Below, piece by piece: positions 50,144 to 57,966 of a DNA stretch of 64,000 nucleotides. The stretch is from contig PWGV01000024.1 of NCBI GenBank assembly GCA_003554585.1, positions 1 through 64,000 on the forward strand, given 5' to 3'. How positions within the stretch are numbered: the stretch's first letter is position 1; every line of letters begins with the position of its first letter. The notes under the pieces were generated by a model. It was given only the letters and a program-made list of their open reading frames with translations, made no database searches and had not been told where the DNA came from. Made by a program: the position numbers and the translations under genes. The DNA is from Halobacteroidaceae bacterium (GTDB lineage: Bacteria; Bacillota; Halanaerobiia; B1SED10-174).

Positions 50144-51520
50144 TTGCAATCAAAACTGCAAAACCTTGTTTCCCTGAGTAATTCTGATTACTGTGATATC
50201 CGTATTGAAGAAACAGAAGTCACTCTTATTTCTTTCCGGGGCAAAGAGATCGAAAAAATGGAGGGGAAAATTCAGTTTGGAGGTTGTATAAGGACCCTCA
50301 TCGGAAGCGGTTGGGGTTTTGTTGCGTTTAACCGGCTGGATGAACTGGAAGATAAGCTTCGCCGGGCTGAAGAACAGGCCCGGGCCATTAACCGGGTCAA
50401 AGCAGGTTCAATTTCTCTTGCTCCCTCCCAAAAATTTATTGACCGGGTTTTTACCCCCTACCGGGAAGATCCCCGGAAGGTTTCTTTAAAAGAAAAGGCA
50501 GAGCTTCTCGAACATTATAATCAGTTAATTCTAGAAACTGACCCCCGCATTACCAGCACCCGCATCGTCTACTTTGACAAACATACCGACTGGTATTATA
50601 CCAATTCCCATGGTTCTTATATTTACCAGGAAAAGACGGATATCGGAGGCAATCTGGGGGCTACCGCCAGCGATGGAGAAGAAAGAACTTACGATTCGGT
50701 CACTTTTGGCTCAACTAACGATTTCAACTCCGCCCGAAACCACGATGAAGCAGTGATCGCTGCTGCCCAAAGGGCTGCAGATCAATTAACCGCCCCTACC
50801 GTCAGGGGTGGAGAATACACAGTTATTCTTGACCCGGAAATGGCGGGTCTTTTCGTCCACGAAGCCTTCGGCCATTTAAGTGAAGCCGATGAAATCTACG
50901 AAGACAAAAATCTCCTGAAATTAATGGAGCTGGGCACCCGTTACGGCCCCTCATTTTTAAATATTTATGACAGCGGGCAGGAATGGGGCAACCGGGGTTG
51001 CATGAAATATGATGACGAAGGAACTCCCACCGAAAAAACCTACCTGATAAAAGGAGGAGAAGTTATTGGGCACCTCCATTCCCGGGAATCTGCTTCCAGG
51101 ATGAATGCCCGCCCAACCGGAAACGCCCGGGCAATTAATTACCGCTTTCCACCAATCTGCCGAATGCGGTCTACCTGTATTGAAGGAGGTAAGGATAAAT
51201 TTGAGGACATGCTCTCCGGTATAGACCTCGGCGTTTACGCAATTGGAGGTATTGGGGGAGAAACAAATGGCGAACTGTTTACATTTACCGCCACCAGGGG
51301 CCAGATGATCCGCAATGGACGCCTTGCTGAACCTGTAAAAAACGTTACTCTTACCGGCAATGTCTTTCACACTCTGGATAATATCGATAAAATCGGAGAC
51401 GATTTTTCATTTTTAAATAACGCCGGGGGCTGCGGAAAATTCGAGCAGTCTCCCCTGCCCACAAGCGAAGGCTCACCCCATATCCGCATCAAAAATGTAA
51501 TTATCGGGGGTGAAAGCTAA
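50144..51520 (+). CDS. tldD: TldD family metallopeptidase
   Basis: HEAFGHLSEADEI (HExxxH) motif; GGxGGETNGELFTFTATRGQMIRNG. Confidence 0.93.
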   Translation: MQSKLQNLVSLSNSDYCDIRIEETEVTLISFRGKEIEKMEGKIQFGGCIRTLIGSGWGFVAFNRLDELEDKLRRAEEQARAINRVKAGSISLAPSQKFIDRVFTPYREDPRKVSLKEKAELLEHYNQLILETDPRITSTRIVYFDKHTDWYYTNSHGSYIYQEKTDIGGNLGATASDGEERTYDSVTFGSTNDFNSARNHDEAVIAAAQRAADQLTAPTVRGGEYTVILDPEMAGLFVHEAFGHLSEADEIYEDKNLLKLMELGTRYGPSFLNIYDSGQEWGNRGCMKYDDEGTPTEKTYLIKGGEVIGHLHSRESASRMNARPTGNARAINYRFPPICRMRSTCIEGGKDKFEDMLSGIDLGVYAIGGIGGETNGELFTFTATRGQMIRNGRLAEPVKNVTLTGNVFHTLDNIDKIGDDFSFLNNAGGCGKFEQSPLPTSEGSPHIRIKNVIIGGES

Positions 51521-52803
51521 TGGATTTTAAGTCAATGCTAAATCCTGAAGAAAAAGGCGACCTCCTGCGCAAGGAAAGTCAACATACCACAGTCCAGTTT
51601 TCCAATAACCGGCTGAAAAAAATAAATTCAGGAGAGAGCAACAGGGAAGTCCTGCGTTTAATAAAAAATAGCCGAGTAGGGCTTGTGGAAAATACCAAGC
51701 CGGAAAACAATAATCGTTTAATTGAAATGGCCCGGGAAGCATCCGAGCTTGGCTCCAGAGTTGAATTTTCTTTGCCGGGTCAAGTTCATCTGGAAAGACC
51801 CGAAATTTGTGATGAGCAAATCGACAGGTTAAAGTTGGAGGAATTAATCCGGCCCGCCCAGGAGTTTATTCAAAAAACCACGTCCTACCATCCCGATCTC
51901 CAGGCTGAAGTTAGCGTCCGCAAGGAGAACAACTTTATTAAACTGGAAAACAGTTCGGGCTTTTCCGGGTCTTATAGAAAAACCCAGGTTAAAATTCTTT
52001 TTGGACTGAGGTTAATCGAGGGGAAAAATCTTCTCGTAGCCTATTCTTTCCCCCAGGAAACCCACTGGGAAAATATTAACTGGGAAGAAGAAAGAGAAAC
52101 TCTCCTGCAAAAAATTGACTGGGGAAGAAAGAATGTTAGCCTGCCTTCAGGAAATTACCCTGTCCTTTTCATTCCGGAAACCTTTGCGGAAATTCTCCAC
52201 CCTGTTGAAGCATGCCTGAATGGCCAGGCCGTGGTCCGGGGATTATCTCCCTGGGCAAATAGATTGGAAGAAAAGATTTTTTCTGAAAATTTTAGCCTTT
52301 CTAATAATGGTTTATTGCCCAGGGGACCAGGAAGCAAACCCTTTGATCGGGAAGGAGTCGGCTGTTCTTCTTTCCACTTAATTGAGAACGGAAAATTGCA
52401 AAACTATTTGTTGGATTTAGAAACAGCCCATAAACTAAATCTAACTCCCATGGGAACGGGTGGAGAAAACGGTCCCACTATTAATAACCTTGTAATGGAA
52501 CCCGGGGAAAAATCCTTTTCTGAAATGTTACAGAGCATCGACGAAGGAATTTTAATCGCTGGAACCATGGGCGCATGGGCAGGCAACCCCTACGGAGGAC
52601 AGGTAAGCGGCAATATTTCCCTGGGTTATAAAATTAAAAACGGTAAAATTGAGGGCCGCCTAAAAGATGCCATGTTCTCTCTCAATATATTCCGGGCCTT
52701 TAAAGACAACATTTCTGCCATTGGTTCAGAACCAAAATGGGTCGATAACTTGCATTTACCTGCCGTTTTAATTGATCCCGTAAATATATCTATAAAAGGA
52801 TAG
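51520..52803 (+). CDS. TldE/PmbA family protein
   Basis: GVGCSSFHLIENGKLQNYLLDLETAHKLN; AWAGNPYGGQVSGNISLGYKIKNGKIEGRLKDAM; partner of upstream TldD. Confidence 0.9.
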   Translation: MDFKSMLNPEEKGDLLRKESQHTTVQFSNNRLKKINSGESNREVLRLIKNSRVGLVENTKPENNNRLIEMAREASELGSRVEFSLPGQVHLERPEICDEQIDRLKLEELIRPAQEFIQKTTSYHPDLQAEVSVRKENNFIKLENSSGFSGSYRKTQVKILFGLRLIEGKNLLVAYSFPQETHWENINWEEERETLLQKIDWGRKNVSLPSGNYPVLFIPETFAEILHPVEACLNGQAVVRGLSPWANRLEEKIFSENFSLSNNGLLPRGPGSKPFDREGVGCSSFHLIENGKLQNYLLDLETAHKLNLTPMGTGGENGPTINNLVMEPGEKSFSEMLQSIDEGILIAGTMGAWAGNPYGGQVSGNISLGYKIKNGKIEGRLKDAMFSLNIFRAFKDNISAIGSEPKWVDNLHLPAVLIDPVNISIKG

Positions 52804-52814
52804 GGGGAAAACCC

Positions 52815-53708
52815 TTGGGTTTATTTAATTCTGTTCTTGTGATTGTTAACCCCATAGCGGGAAGCGGAAAAGCAGGAAGAATGGTCCCAGAACTGCGAAA
52901 CCGACTCGAAAAATTCGGAATCCCCTATACCCTTACCGAAACTCAAGCACCGGACCACGCCACACAAATCGCCCAGAAAGCCGCTGAAGAAGGTTATGAT
53001 GCCGTCTGCGCAGTAGGCGGAGACGGAACTGTGAACGAGGTTATCAATGGGCTGGGAGAAGATGGCCCAGCTTTTGGTATAATACCCCTGGGTACGGGAA
53101 ATGACCTTGCTAGAACCATGGGAATTTCCCTCGCTCCACTGGAAAGCGTTTCCCTTCTAAGCCAGGGTAAAATCAGGAAAATTGACCTTGGAAAGGAAAC
53201 TGACCGCCTTTTTTCCATCATTGCTGGACTTGGATTCCCCGCAGAAGTCATGAAGAGGACCAATAGTTATAAGGGAATGCTCCGTGGTTCAATGGCCATT
53301 GCCTACAACGTTGTTAAAACAATTTCCCTGCTGCATCCAGTCCCGGTAGAACTGGATCTCGATGGTAAAAAGTTCTCTCGTAAGGCCAGCGGCCTATTTA
53401 TTCTCAATACCCGTTTTACCGGTGGTGGTCTAATGGTTGCCCCGGACGCTGATCCCGAAGACGGCCTGTTGGACGTTGTCATTATGAATAATCTATCCCG
53501 GGGGGGGTTACTGGGACTTCTTCCACGGGTTTACAGGGGAGGCCATCGCAACCACCCCCAGGTTGAATTCTTCCGGGCCAGGGAAATTTCCATTAATACT
53601 GCCGCTCCGTATCCCAAAATGTTTGACGGCTCCATTTATGGGACCTCGCCCCTCCGGGTTGAGGTAGTTCCCCAGAAATTTAAAATTATTTGTCCTGAGG
53701 AGGTTTAA
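52815..53708 (+). CDS. Diacylglycerol/lipid kinase family (YegS/DgkB-like)
   Basis: VIVNPIAGSGKAGRMVPEL; AVGGDGTVNEVINGL; IIPLGTGNDLARTMGI. Confidence 0.94.
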   Translation: MGLFNSVLVIVNPIAGSGKAGRMVPELRNRLEKFGIPYTLTETQAPDHATQIAQKAAEEGYDAVCAVGGDGTVNEVINGLGEDGPAFGIIPLGTGNDLARTMGISLAPLESVSLLSQGKIRKIDLGKETDRLFSIIAGLGFPAEVMKRTNSYKGMLRGSMAIAYNVVKTISLLHPVPVELDLDGKKFSRKASGLFILNTRFTGGGLMVAPDADPEDGLLDVVIMNNLSRGGLLGLLPRVYRGGHRNHPQVEFFRAREISINTAAPYPKMFDGSIYGTSPLRVEVVPQKFKIICPEEV

Positions 53709-53711
53709 GAT

Positions 53712-54815
53712 ATGACTGATCCCCGTATTGCTAAAATGGCCCAGGTCCTGGTCAACCATTCGTTAGGTTTGCATGAAGGGCAAAAAGTGGCTATCAATTC
53801 TCAGGGTACTGCCTATCCTCTAATAAAGGAGGTTTTTCGGGAAGCTATTCGCAAGGGGGCCTACCCCGAAACCCGAATCCAATTACCGGGGCTTTCAGAA
53901 ATTATTTTTAAAGAAGGTTCCGACCACCAGATCGAGTATGTTTCACCCATGATTAAGCTTATGGCCAATGAATACGATGCCTTTTTAAGCATTGGAGCTC
54001 CTTTTAATACCAGGGAACTGAGCAATATCCCCCCGGAGAAAATGAGGCAATCCCAGAGAGCAACTAGAGAAATTATGCAGACGATTATGAGCCGGGCCGC
54101 CCGCGGGGAATTGAGCTGGTGTGGGACCCAGTACCCAACCCACGCTGCAGCCCAGGAAGGGAACATGTCCCTTGATGAATATACTGAATTTGTTTTCGGT
54201 GCCTGTCTTTTGAATGAAGATGATCCCATTGCCGCCTGGAAAAAAATTCATAAACAGCACGAGAAATTTATTGATTACCTGGAAAATTGTTCTGAACTCC
54301 ACTTTAAATCGAAAGACACAGATCTCAAACTTAATATTTCAGGCCGAAAATGGGAAAACTGCGATGGAAAAAACAACTTCCCCGATGGAGAAATTTTTAC
54401 CGCTCCGATCGAAGATTCGGTAAATGGGCATATCCGCTTCAGTTTCCCGGGCATATATCTGGGGCGGGAAATAGAGGATATCAAGCTAACTTTCTCTGAA
54501 GGAAAAGTAGTTGAGGCCAGGGCCGAAAAAGGAGAAGACCTGCTCCAGACCATTCTCGATACCGATGAGGGCTCCCGATTTGTTGGGGAGGTAGCCATGG
54601 GCACCAACTACGGTATTAAACATTTTACTAAGAACATGCTTTTTGACGAAAAAATCGGAGGGACAATTCACCTGGCTCTTGGCAACGGTTACCCCGAGAC
54701 AGGCAGTAAAAACCAATCGGCAATTCACTGGGATTTATTATGTGACATGCGGACCGGTGGAAAAATCCTTGCAGACGGGGAATTAATTTACAAAGACGGA
54801 ATTTTCACCATTTAA
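53712..54815 (+). CDS. M29-family (AmpS/thermophilic) aminopeptidase
   Basis: VNHSLGLHEGQKVAINSQG; HFTKNMLFDEKIGGTIHLALGNGYPETGSKNQSAIHWDLLCDMRTGGKILADGELIYKDG. Confidence 0.92.
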   Translation: MTDPRIAKMAQVLVNHSLGLHEGQKVAINSQGTAYPLIKEVFREAIRKGAYPETRIQLPGLSEIIFKEGSDHQIEYVSPMIKLMANEYDAFLSIGAPFNTRELSNIPPEKMRQSQRATREIMQTIMSRAARGELSWCGTQYPTHAAAQEGNMSLDEYTEFVFGACLLNEDDPIAAWKKIHKQHEKFIDYLENCSELHFKSKDTDLKLNISGRKWENCDGKNNFPDGEIFTAPIEDSVNGHIRFSFPGIYLGREIEDIKLTFSEGKVVEARAEKGEDLLQTILDTDEGSRFVGEVAMGTNYGIKHFTKNMLFDEKIGGTIHLALGNGYPETGSKNQSAIHWDLLCDMRTGGKILADGELIYKDGIFTI

Positions 54816-54831: not shown

Positions 54832-55545
54832 ATGTTATATTTAATAAGACCGATAAAAATTACAATATACTTTTTGCTGGCCTGGGTTTTCCTGTTATTC
54901 CTGATTTTTTCAAGAATGGTTTCCATGGGCCTTCTATCCTTTACAGCGGCTGCTTTCCTGGATTTTGCTTACGCCCCCTGGGTTGTTAATAGTATCAAAT
55001 CCGCTCAGTATGGGCTCCCCACTGCAACTCTTGTTGCCAGCGGATTATTCTCAACCCTTTCCCTGGCCCTTCCGGCAATTTTGCTTGCTTTGCCAGTCCT
55101 TTTCCGTTTCTGGAAAGAAGGGCTGCCAGCTCCATTCATTTTAACAGGAAGAATCTTAAGCAAGGCTCCCTTTTTCTGGTGGTCAATGATCCTGGCGGGA
55201 ATTTTCCTCCACTTTGGCTGGCAGCCAGCCCAGGATCCACTTGTCCCATTTTTAATTGCTTTCGTTTATTATTCATTTCTGGGGATAACCTTCCTGAGAA
55301 AACCCAGGCCCTGGCCAGCCCAGGTTTCTTTTGTTTTAATGGCCAGCGGGGCTCATTTAGTTTTCGAAACTGTAATGGCCTGGCCGGGAATAGGCCCATT
55401 ACTTTTTAACAGTATCCTGCAGCAGGATCATATTCTGACCTCGGTAATATTCCTTGCTATTTTAAGCCTTGTGATGCTAATTAACTGGGTGCTTTCCCTC
55501 GGTGATGAAGTAAAAAGGGTATTCTGGGGGGAGGAAATCAAATGA
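54832..55545 (+). CDS. Divergent OppB-like permease (degenerate)
   Basis: C-terminal VFETVMAWPGIGPLLFNSILQQDHILTSVIFLAILSLVMLINWVLSLGDEVKR aligns by eye with OppB ETVFSWPGLG...; multiple TM segments. Confidence 0.6.
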   Translation: MLYLIRPIKITIYFLLAWVFLLFLIFSRMVSMGLLSFTAAAFLDFAYAPWVVNSIKSAQYGLPTATLVASGLFSTLSLALPAILLALPVLFRFWKEGLPAPFILTGRILSKAPFFWWSMILAGIFLHFGWQPAQDPLVPFLIAFVYYSFLGITFLRKPRPWPAQVSFVLMASGAHLVFETVMAWPGIGPLLFNSILQQDHILTSVIFLAILSLVMLINWVLSLGDEVKRVFWGEEIK

Positions 55546-56282
55546 CTGAAAATCCCAGGAAAAAAAATTTCACCCCGTACATAAAAAGATTAAAAACCCG
55601 GATCTTAAAAAATCCCAATTTCCCCTTGAACCTTTTTGCGTTCCTTTTCCTTTCTCTATTATTCCTTACCAGTTTAATCCCCGATTTTGCCAGCCTTGAA
55701 TTTTTCCTGAAAACCCGCAACACTTTTTTAATTTCTGGAGGGCTGGCAATACCCCTGACCATGTTCTTTTATATCCTGGCGCTGTTCCCCCGGGTTAATC
55801 TTCTACCTTTTTGGGCCGGACTTTCTCCCATCTTACTGGCCCTGGTTTTATTGGCCTGGGGGTATCCCTTTTTACCAGCGTTGGCCCTGGGTTCCATTGG
55901 TTTTGCCGGCCTGGAAATTTATCCCCGCATATCTCGCTTTATCGAAGGAGCAAATCGACATCCTTCCTTTTTTACAAGTAAAGTCATGGGGATTTCTGAT
56001 CCAGTCCTTTTTTTAAAAATTACCCTGCCTGTTTCTATTTCTATTTTGGGACGGTCATTTTTGCGCGTTTTTCTGTGCATTCTGGCAGTGGAAACTACCA
56101 TTAGCTTCCTTGGCTTAAAAAGCCCCTTATTAGAAACCTGGGGGACTGCCCTGAACCAGGCCTATCTCCACCCTGACTGGCCTCAAAACTGGGGAGAGTT
56201 TCTCTGGCCCGGCGCCATTTTTCTTCTCACAAGTTTGGCCTGCTCGATCCTGATTGAGGAGGGGAAGAATAATGTTGATTAA
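55542..56282 (+). CDS. Divergent OppC-like permease
   Basis: ISDPVLFLKITLPVSISILGRSFLRVFLCILAVETTISFLGLKSPLLETWGTALNQA...GAIFLLTSLACSILIEEG matches OppC EAA/AGLSFLGLG layout. Confidence 0.65.
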   Translation: MTENPRKKNFTPYIKRLKTRILKNPNFPLNLFAFLFLSLLFLTSLIPDFASLEFFLKTRNTFLISGGLAIPLTMFFYILALFPRVNLLPFWAGLSPILLALVLLAWGYPFLPALALGSIGFAGLEIYPRISRFIEGANRHPSFFTSKVMGISDPVLFLKITLPVSISILGRSFLRVFLCILAVETTISFLGLKSPLLETWGTALNQAYLHPDWPQNWGEFLWPGAIFLLTSLACSILIEEGKNNVD

Positions 56283-57933
56283 AATAAAGGACTTAAAAAT
56301 TAAAAACGCAGCAAATCTTCCCATAAATATCAGTTCTTTTTGCCTCGAGCCGGGGCAAAGGATGCAATTAGCCGATCCAACTGGCCAGTCTAACTACATC
56401 CTGCAAATAGAAAACATAATTGACAGCCTTCCTGAAGATACAGTTTGGATCCAGGGCCAACCAATTGATTTTTTCAAACCCAACCTCTCTTTGGAAAAAC
56501 AGCTCCCGGATAAAACCAAAATTATTGCCGGAAAAATTATTGCCTGCTCCCACGACCTTCTTAAGATGAAGCCGCGGGATATTCCTTCCAACCTGCTTAA
56601 TATTTTGCGCTGGACCGCTGCTATTCTTTCAGCCCCATCTTTAATCATCGCCCGGGACGATCTAACTGATTCAGGCCCTTATTCCCGGCAAAAAGTTCTC
56701 GAAGAACTGAGCCTTTTGTTTGCAGAAAATAATACCGCTCTTTTACAAATAGTGGAACATAACGTTGATTTAAGTCCTCTAATCATGGATTATACCCGGA
56801 TAAAAGCAGGAGATATTATTACTATTTCCCCAGGAAAAAGAAACCATTCTCAGGATTTAAAAACTCCTCCCCCAGATTACAAGATCCTGGCCTTGAATGA
56901 TTGCTCTGGAGACCACCTTGAAGACTGGAACATAGATATTGCCCAAAACCAATCCTGGACTTTTATCTGTGATGGGGAGCAAACCGCCGATGGCCTGGCC
57001 AGATCACTTGCCGGGATCGAAAAACCCAAAAAAGGGACGCGAGAGTGCATTCTTAAGCCAAGGGAAATACTATATTTTGAATCCTTTCCATTCTTTCCCC
57101 AAAAAACTCTGGCTCAAAGCATCAAAATATTTTCAAAGCAAATTTCTTCCCCAAAAAAACTCGACCAAAATTTTAAAAAACTACAGGAAAAAATCAAAGA
57201 GTTTAATTACCTCCAACCCGAAAATATTCTCTCTTTTTTCCCGGATGAAATTTCTCCAGCCCAGGAATTAAATATTTTCCTCTTATGGGCTTCTGTTATC
57301 CCACCTCGGCTTTTGATTTTGAATAACCCCCGGGGTTTAATCCAGGAAAATCTTTCCCTTATGCAGTCCTTGATAAAAAATCAGAGGACCAATATTCTAA
57401 TAACAACTACACGGACGGATTTAGCCCTTACCCCTAAGCTGGGAATTGTCTTTGAAAAACGACTGCTGGAGGATGGGCCCCAATATAAAATCCGAGACAC
57501 CCCTTTCCACCCTTATTCCCGGGCCATACTGACTCCTGATCGCGAGCTTCCCTCCTTCCCTTTCAACCGGGAAGAAATTAACGGCTGTCCCTTTCACCCC
57601 GCCTGCGGGGAGTCTTTCTCCTATTGCGGGTGGAATGGTGCTGACCTGAAAGTTTTCCTGCAGAATCGCCATTTAGACAATTCAATCCATAGTTATGGTT
57701 TGAAAGGAAATGACCTTTCCCTTGAACTCGCCTATACTTCAGAATTTTTCTGGCAGGATTTAATTGAGGAAATAAAGTCCCTGATGTCATCTCAAAACGA
57801 ACCCCTATCCGAGGCCTGTTTGGAGGTAGAATATGAAAACCGAAAGGTTTGGGCCCGCTTTTCACCCCAGAAACCACCCGGTCTGCAAAAAGTTGAAACC
57901 GACCGCCGGGTAGCCTGCCACCTTTTCAAGTAA
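56272..57933 (+). CDS. Fused double OppD/OppF-like ABC protein lacking recognisable catalytic motifs
   Basis: HPYSRAIL, GCPFHPACGESFSYC and RRVACHLF are OppD/F C-terminal hallmarks; PSLIIARDDLTDS and PRLLILNNPRGLI occupy Walker B/D-loop positions; no GxxGxGK[ST] in either half; start trimmed to ATG after gaggagg. Confidence 0.6.
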   Translation: MLIKIKDLKIKNAANLPINISSFCLEPGQRMQLADPTGQSNYILQIENIIDSLPEDTVWIQGQPIDFFKPNLSLEKQLPDKTKIIAGKIIACSHDLLKMKPRDIPSNLLNILRWTAAILSAPSLIIARDDLTDSGPYSRQKVLEELSLLFAENNTALLQIVEHNVDLSPLIMDYTRIKAGDIITISPGKRNHSQDLKTPPPDYKILALNDCSGDHLEDWNIDIAQNQSWTFICDGEQTADGLARSLAGIEKPKKGTRECILKPREILYFESFPFFPQKTLAQSIKIFSKQISSPKKLDQNFKKLQEKIKEFNYLQPENILSFFPDEISPAQELNIFLLWASVIPPRLLILNNPRGLIQENLSLMQSLIKNQRTNILITTTRTDLALTPKLGIVFEKRLLEDGPQYKIRDTPFHPYSRAILTPDRELPSFPFNREEINGCPFHPACGESFSYCGWNGADLKVFLQNRHLDNSIHSYGLKGNDLSLELAYTSEFFWQDLIEEIKSLMSSQNEPLSEACLEVEYENRKVWARFSPQKPPGLQKVETDRRVACHLFK

Positions 57934-57966
57934 AAAACCTCTGGATTTACCAGAGGTTTTCTCTTT
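57933..57966 (+). terminator. Intrinsic terminator ending the tldD-to-opp-like gene run
   Basis: AAAACCTCTGG-attta-CCAGAGGTTTT then CTCTTTTT. Confidence 0.8.

Follow-up and report, generated by a model that had tools for sequence, protein, structure and literature searches.

It is the ATP-binding cassette that defines an ABC transporter, and the locus described here raises the question of what an importer-type complex could still do when both of its ATP sites are gone. The window, i.e. the whole stretch of 64,000 nucleotides that was analysed, stems from a Halobacteroidaceae bacterium and carries on its + strand, at positions 54832-57933, three intact, overlapping genes in the order B', C', D'F'. 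B' (54832-55545) encodes a shortened OppB-type permease of 237 aa, C' (55542-56282) a shortened OppC-type permease of 246 aa, and D'F' (56272-57933) a fused pseudo-ATPase of 553 aa. The ATG at 56272, taken as the start of D'F', carries a Shine-Dalgarno sequence; a longer ORF of 559 aa begins with a TTG at 56254. B' and C' are joined by an ATGA overlap, C' and D'F' overlap by 11 bp, a GGAGG-like Shine-Dalgarno sequence adjoins the start of each gene, and a terminator-like hairpin with an 11-pair stem and a T-rich tail (57934-57960, + strand) directly follows D'F'. These coordinates and signals agree with a first-pass annotation of this DNA, which had described three overlapping + strand genes with intact frames, ATGA-type overlap, start-adjacent ribosome-binding sites and a clean terminator. 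A frameshift or assembly artefact was considered and dropped, as three separate assemblies agree.

An M29 aminopeptidase gene (53712-54815, + strand) ends 16 bp upstream of B' and is probably co-transcribed with the cluster. Further upstream on the same strand lie the PmbA/TldD protease genes tldD and tldE (50144-52803) and a YegS/DAGK-type lipid kinase gene (52815-53708), which form a probable single operon together with M29 and the cluster. Downstream, a convergent M20 hydrolase gene is followed by that of IleRS. In all three species with a complete cluster, no gene for a substrate-binding protein adjoins it, as had been noted at first pass for the window; such a protein may be encoded elsewhere in the genome.

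The three proteins were initially described as Opp-like but strongly diverged, and profile-profile comparison bears this out: they are homologues, albeit highly diverged ones, of OppB, OppC and fused OppDF. Pfam matches stay below the cut-off for B' (BPD_transp_1, E=0.027) and D'F' (oligo_HPY, E=0.039), and C' has no Pfam match. The best NCBIfam Opp/Nik matches reach E=5e-6 (B'), 6e-4 (C') and 6e-6 (D'F'), and among PDB profiles D'F' matches 4fwi_B (E=4e-12), C' matches DppC (1e-5) and B' matches DppB (0.005); 4fwi is the structure of DppD from Thermoanaerobacter tengcongensis (reference 35 of PMC12136057). With hhalign, B' aligned to intact OppB at 97.3% (E=2.5e-11, 219 columns), C' to intact OppC at 97.1% (E=7e-11) and the C-terminal domain of D'F' to the F half of intact DF at 99.7% (E=1.5e-26), against 0.1-0.5% for control proteins, a figure that did not exceed 0.2% for the two permeases. 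The two ABC halves of D'F' alone gave weak scores (31.7% and 40.9%, E 3e-4 to 5e-4), each preferring the matching half of the parent. Judged by these profiles, the cluster encodes two permeases of the OppB/OppC type, as expected of an Opp/Dpp system. AlphaFold2 models reached a mean pLDDT of 34 for D'F' (2 sequences) and 43 for B' (3 sequences), too low for any reading of the fold.

Two operons of the same genome (C39, C150) encode intact fused OppDF together with a binding protein, OppB and a long OppC, and their two fused OppDF proteins are the best matches to D'F' within the genome. The parent of the cluster is likely to have been a class-typical fused OppDF peptide importer or a close relative. 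This descent is based on gene order, the D-F fusion, the C-terminal domain and pairwise scores, and not on the tree: in a rebuilt F-half tree, the four dead proteins group with support of 100/100, and the parent branch is unplaced because of long branches.

Both ATPase halves of D'F' have lost their catalytic motifs. In the D' half (residues 1-205; 56272-56886, + strand), a dead first nucleotide-binding domain, Walker A has changed from GESGCGKT to ADPTGQSN; in the F' half (residues 206-405; 56887-57486, + strand), the dead second domain, it has changed from GESGSGKS to CDGEQTAD. Walker B (IADEP in intact proteins) reads IARDD and ILNNP, the LSGGQ signature is gone in both halves (ISPAQ in F'), and so is the switch His. 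All four of these motifs are dead in the two halves of every complete orthologue (3/3). The three orthologues also share the deletion of the D-half Fe-S domain, and the ATPase motifs had already been lost by the time of their common ancestor. Two ABC domains with all catalytic motifs, a defining feature of Opp/Dpp importers, are therefore missing, and as judged from these residues ATP-driven import by a B'C'D'F' complex is very unlikely. Two cysteines of the dead F' half, C233 and C259, are invariant in the three species.

The permeases differ in what they retain of the ATPase-docking loops. In B', the coupling (EAA) loop between TM4 and TM5 is deleted, and a conserved FLRxPRPWPAQ turn is found instead; this TM4-TM5 junction is 83% invariant, against 58% across B'. 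The coupling loop of C' has its full length, and its segment is 34% invariant, against 54% across C'. Selection for keeping the C' loop was considered as well and dropped, since few parts of C' are less conserved than this segment. EAA/coupling loops for docking an ATPase are hence not present in both permeases, as they would be in an Opp/Dpp importer; the conserved parts of B' and C' are their transmembrane cores.

The OppF-type C-terminal domain of D'F' (residues 406-553; 57487-57930, + strand) retains an HPY motif and an Fe-S ligand pattern. The first three presumed [4Fe-4S] ligands (C439-x5-C445-x6-C452; 57586-57627) are invariant in four orthologues, and the presumed fourth, C549 in VACHLF (57916-57918), is kept in the same number. 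An additional cysteine, C516 (57817-57819), is shared by all four dead orthologues and has no counterpart in intact paralogues. All five C-terminal cysteines are thus invariant in four orthologues, compared to only 62/244 columns. The HPY and cysteine hallmarks reported for D'F' at first pass hold for the F half; their D-half counterpart is deleted, so that the oligo_HPY/[4Fe-4S] domain typical of Opp/Dpp ATPases is present by ligand pattern in the F half only. D'F' shares a long insert in this domain with the intact fused OppDF of the same genome. The spacing is that of E. coli, where the ligands are Cys284/290/297 in DppD and Cys293/299/306 in DppF (C-x5-C-x6-C), and on the strength of these cysteines D'F' presumably binds a [4Fe-4S] cluster. 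In E. coli, DppBCDF assembles only if both Fe-S domains are there, the complex comes apart when the [4Fe-4S] cluster is lost or oxidised, and coupling helices dock DppB on DppD and DppC on DppF (PMC12136057).

Next, we looked at the distribution of the cluster. Complete orthologues are known from only three species, all represented by draft assemblies. Two other species carry the same three-gene order at the same site, with identities to B'/C'/D'F' of 80/77/74% (G003) and 65/61/55% (G002), and both keep the ATGA and the 11-bp overlap. In another species of the genus (G001), the flanks are kept and the cluster is absent; 0.8 kb with a DUF2087 gene separates M29 and M20, and tblastn of this gap revealed no cluster remnant. 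The DUF2087 gene (L080:10886-11281) lies at the cluster site on the opposite strand. The sister genus (G005) has a D'F' orthologue beyond IleRS in convergent orientation, on a contig that ends inside the gene, and searches of this genome gave no orthologue of B', C' or M29. A complete, normal-looking Opp operon with B, C, D, F and binding protein genes (G005:C102, L044:1208-6571) is located there between IleRS and the D'F' orthologue. Outside the genus, no complete orthologue was found with the B' and C' profiles in 59 genomes of the class or with the D'F' profile in 399 genomes of the phylum. As far as these comparisons go, the cluster is probably older than the split of the two genera, with at least one loss since. 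The species without a trace of it, together with a constraint 3-5x weaker than that on neighbours and intact paralogues, marks the cluster as dispensable.

This raises the question of whether the cluster is a relic, whose importer function was lost and whose frames stay open during slow decay by chance or through mild selection against toxic membrane fragments. The loss of all catalytic motifs and the clean loss in G001 would fit such a history. In order to estimate constraint, dN/dS was calculated (Nei-Gojobori, G000 of the window versus G003), yielding 0.20 for B' (95% bootstrap limits 0.12-0.30), 0.27 for C' (0.18-0.44) and 0.25 for D'F' (0.18-0.33), compared to 0.06-0.12 for neighbouring genes and 0.05-0.07 for intact Opp paralogues. 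Constraint is thus relaxed, as a relic would show, but dN/dS lies clearly below 1, with all 95% limits below 0.45. In a neutral simulation with an equal number of substitutions, about 17 stops were expected over the three genes for this closest pair (G000-G003) alone, whereas none was seen; there is no frameshift in B', C' or D'F' in the three species either, and start sites and overlaps are kept. Broken frames and a dN/dS near 1, the marks of a pseudogene cluster, were accordingly absent in all three species. Within D'F', the D' half is the loosest part (dN/dS 0.48), which again is what decay would produce, the C-terminal domain is intermediate (0.27), and the F' half is the tightest (0.11, 95% limits 0.06-0.18), although the D'/F' contrast stems partly from unequal dS (0.44 vs 0.90), with dN differing twofold too. 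The low value of the F' half is as expected of a putative binding surface and, like the retention of every Fe-S cysteine, speaks against a relic. Since the proteins stayed under this constraint although their motifs had been lost by the time of the common ancestor, decay, the main rival explanation, becomes unlikely. The cluster is constrained and not decaying, and the first-pass view that function was retained gains support from dN/dS, from the missing stops and from the orthologues.

Taken together, we favour, with reasonable but far from complete confidence, a retained pseudo-transporter that consists of B', C' and the pseudo-ATPase D'F', is derived from a fused OppDF-type importer and forms a non-pumping complex held by an Fe-S domain. 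With the B' loop and the D-half Fe-S domain deleted and the constraint on D' the loosest, the B-D arm is, by these sequence features, more dismantled and the C-F arm less so. For this reason, we propose that the B'C' bundle and D'F' would still assemble into a membrane complex, which would owe its cohesion to the F' half and to a [4Fe-4S] domain and would not pump. Its most likely role would be that of an ATP-independent, possibly redox-labile membrane platform at which peptides dock, are sensed or pass through passively, to the benefit of TldD, TldE and M29, the peptidases encoded alongside; the link to the peptidases is a guess from gene order and spacing. The first-pass annotation had considered a non-transporting or repurposed complex: the loss of all motifs for ATP-driven transport agrees with the former, and repurposing is something we infer. 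We regard it as a tentative and rather doubtful further step that an importer-type ABC complex without ATP use was repurposed as a redox-sensitive, [4Fe-4S]-held sensor, anchor or channel for cytoplasmic peptidases, selected for its Fe-S-bearing F half and transmembrane core and not for pumping.

A regulatory role would also account for retention without pumping: D'F' or B'/C' might assemble with components of the intact fused OppDF importers and either keep these inactive or adjust their activity. The two intact operons in the same genome are the closest in sequence, the F' half is strongly conserved and the C' coupling loop is of full length. However, the cluster has its own permease pair, B' is devoid of the docking loop, the D' half, which would also be required to dock, is the least conserved part, and there is no genetic link to the intact operons, which leaves this explanation improbable, slightly more so than decay. 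Finally, ATP-driven transport by B'C' with a working ATPase borrowed from another operon and D'F' as an accessory subunit appears highly improbable, as the B' coupling loop is absent, the C' loop is drifting and no substrate-binding protein is adjacent, even though the conserved transmembrane cores would suit it and shared ATPases have a precedent among ABC sugar importers (compare PMC7658222).

The pseudo-transporter that we favour would be an importer-type complex under selection in which both ATP sites are gone and an iron-sulfur site survives, while degenerate sites, in themselves well known, usually concern one of two. In such a complex, what the Opp/Dpp Fe-S domain, itself poorly understood, contributes to structure would be uncoupled from the ATPase cycle, which makes for a natural case in which to ask what this domain does. 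In the open-access literature, we found no described example of an ATPase-dead Opp complex.

Among known systems, the fused OppDF importers of the class (e.g. G000:C39) resemble the cluster in the B-C-DF order, the D-F fusion, and the F-half C-terminal domain, in which a long insert separates the third Cys from the fourth. They are larger, with 329 aa in OppB and, in the other two proteins, about 600 aa (OppC) and about 753 aa (OppDF). Unlike the cluster, they keep Walker A/B, signature and switch His intact in each half and have two Fe-S domains, a beta-propeller-like insert in OppC, an adjacent gene for a substrate-binding protein and a dN/dS of 0.05-0.07. Intact OppC of these class-typical systems carries an insert of about 300 aa after the first transmembrane segment, which matches the YCF48/PSII_BNR beta-propeller (PF14870, E=2e-11; L040:2468-4270, G000:C39) and is also present in L041, L045-L047 and L050; it looks unusual for a permease to contain a beta-propeller. 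In the F half of the fused OppDF proteins themselves (about 753-773 aa; L040:4245-6506 and relatives), the long insert follows the third presumed Fe-S cysteine and precedes the fourth, a stretch of 16 residues in E. coli DppF. With E. coli DppBCDF, the cluster shares the F-half ligand pattern C-x5-C-x6-C...C. The E. coli complex, however, has a [4Fe-4S] domain on both ATPase subunits and a binding protein (PMC12136057), and its ATPases, like the DppD of 4fwi, are active, whereas D'F' is left with a single Fe-S domain and has none of the catalytic residues. A further parallel is offered by ABC exporters with one degenerate nucleotide-binding site, in which catalytic residues were lost and the ABC domain was kept by selection; these exporters retain a second working site (PMC7756269), whereas both halves of D'F' are motif-less and the system is of the importer type.
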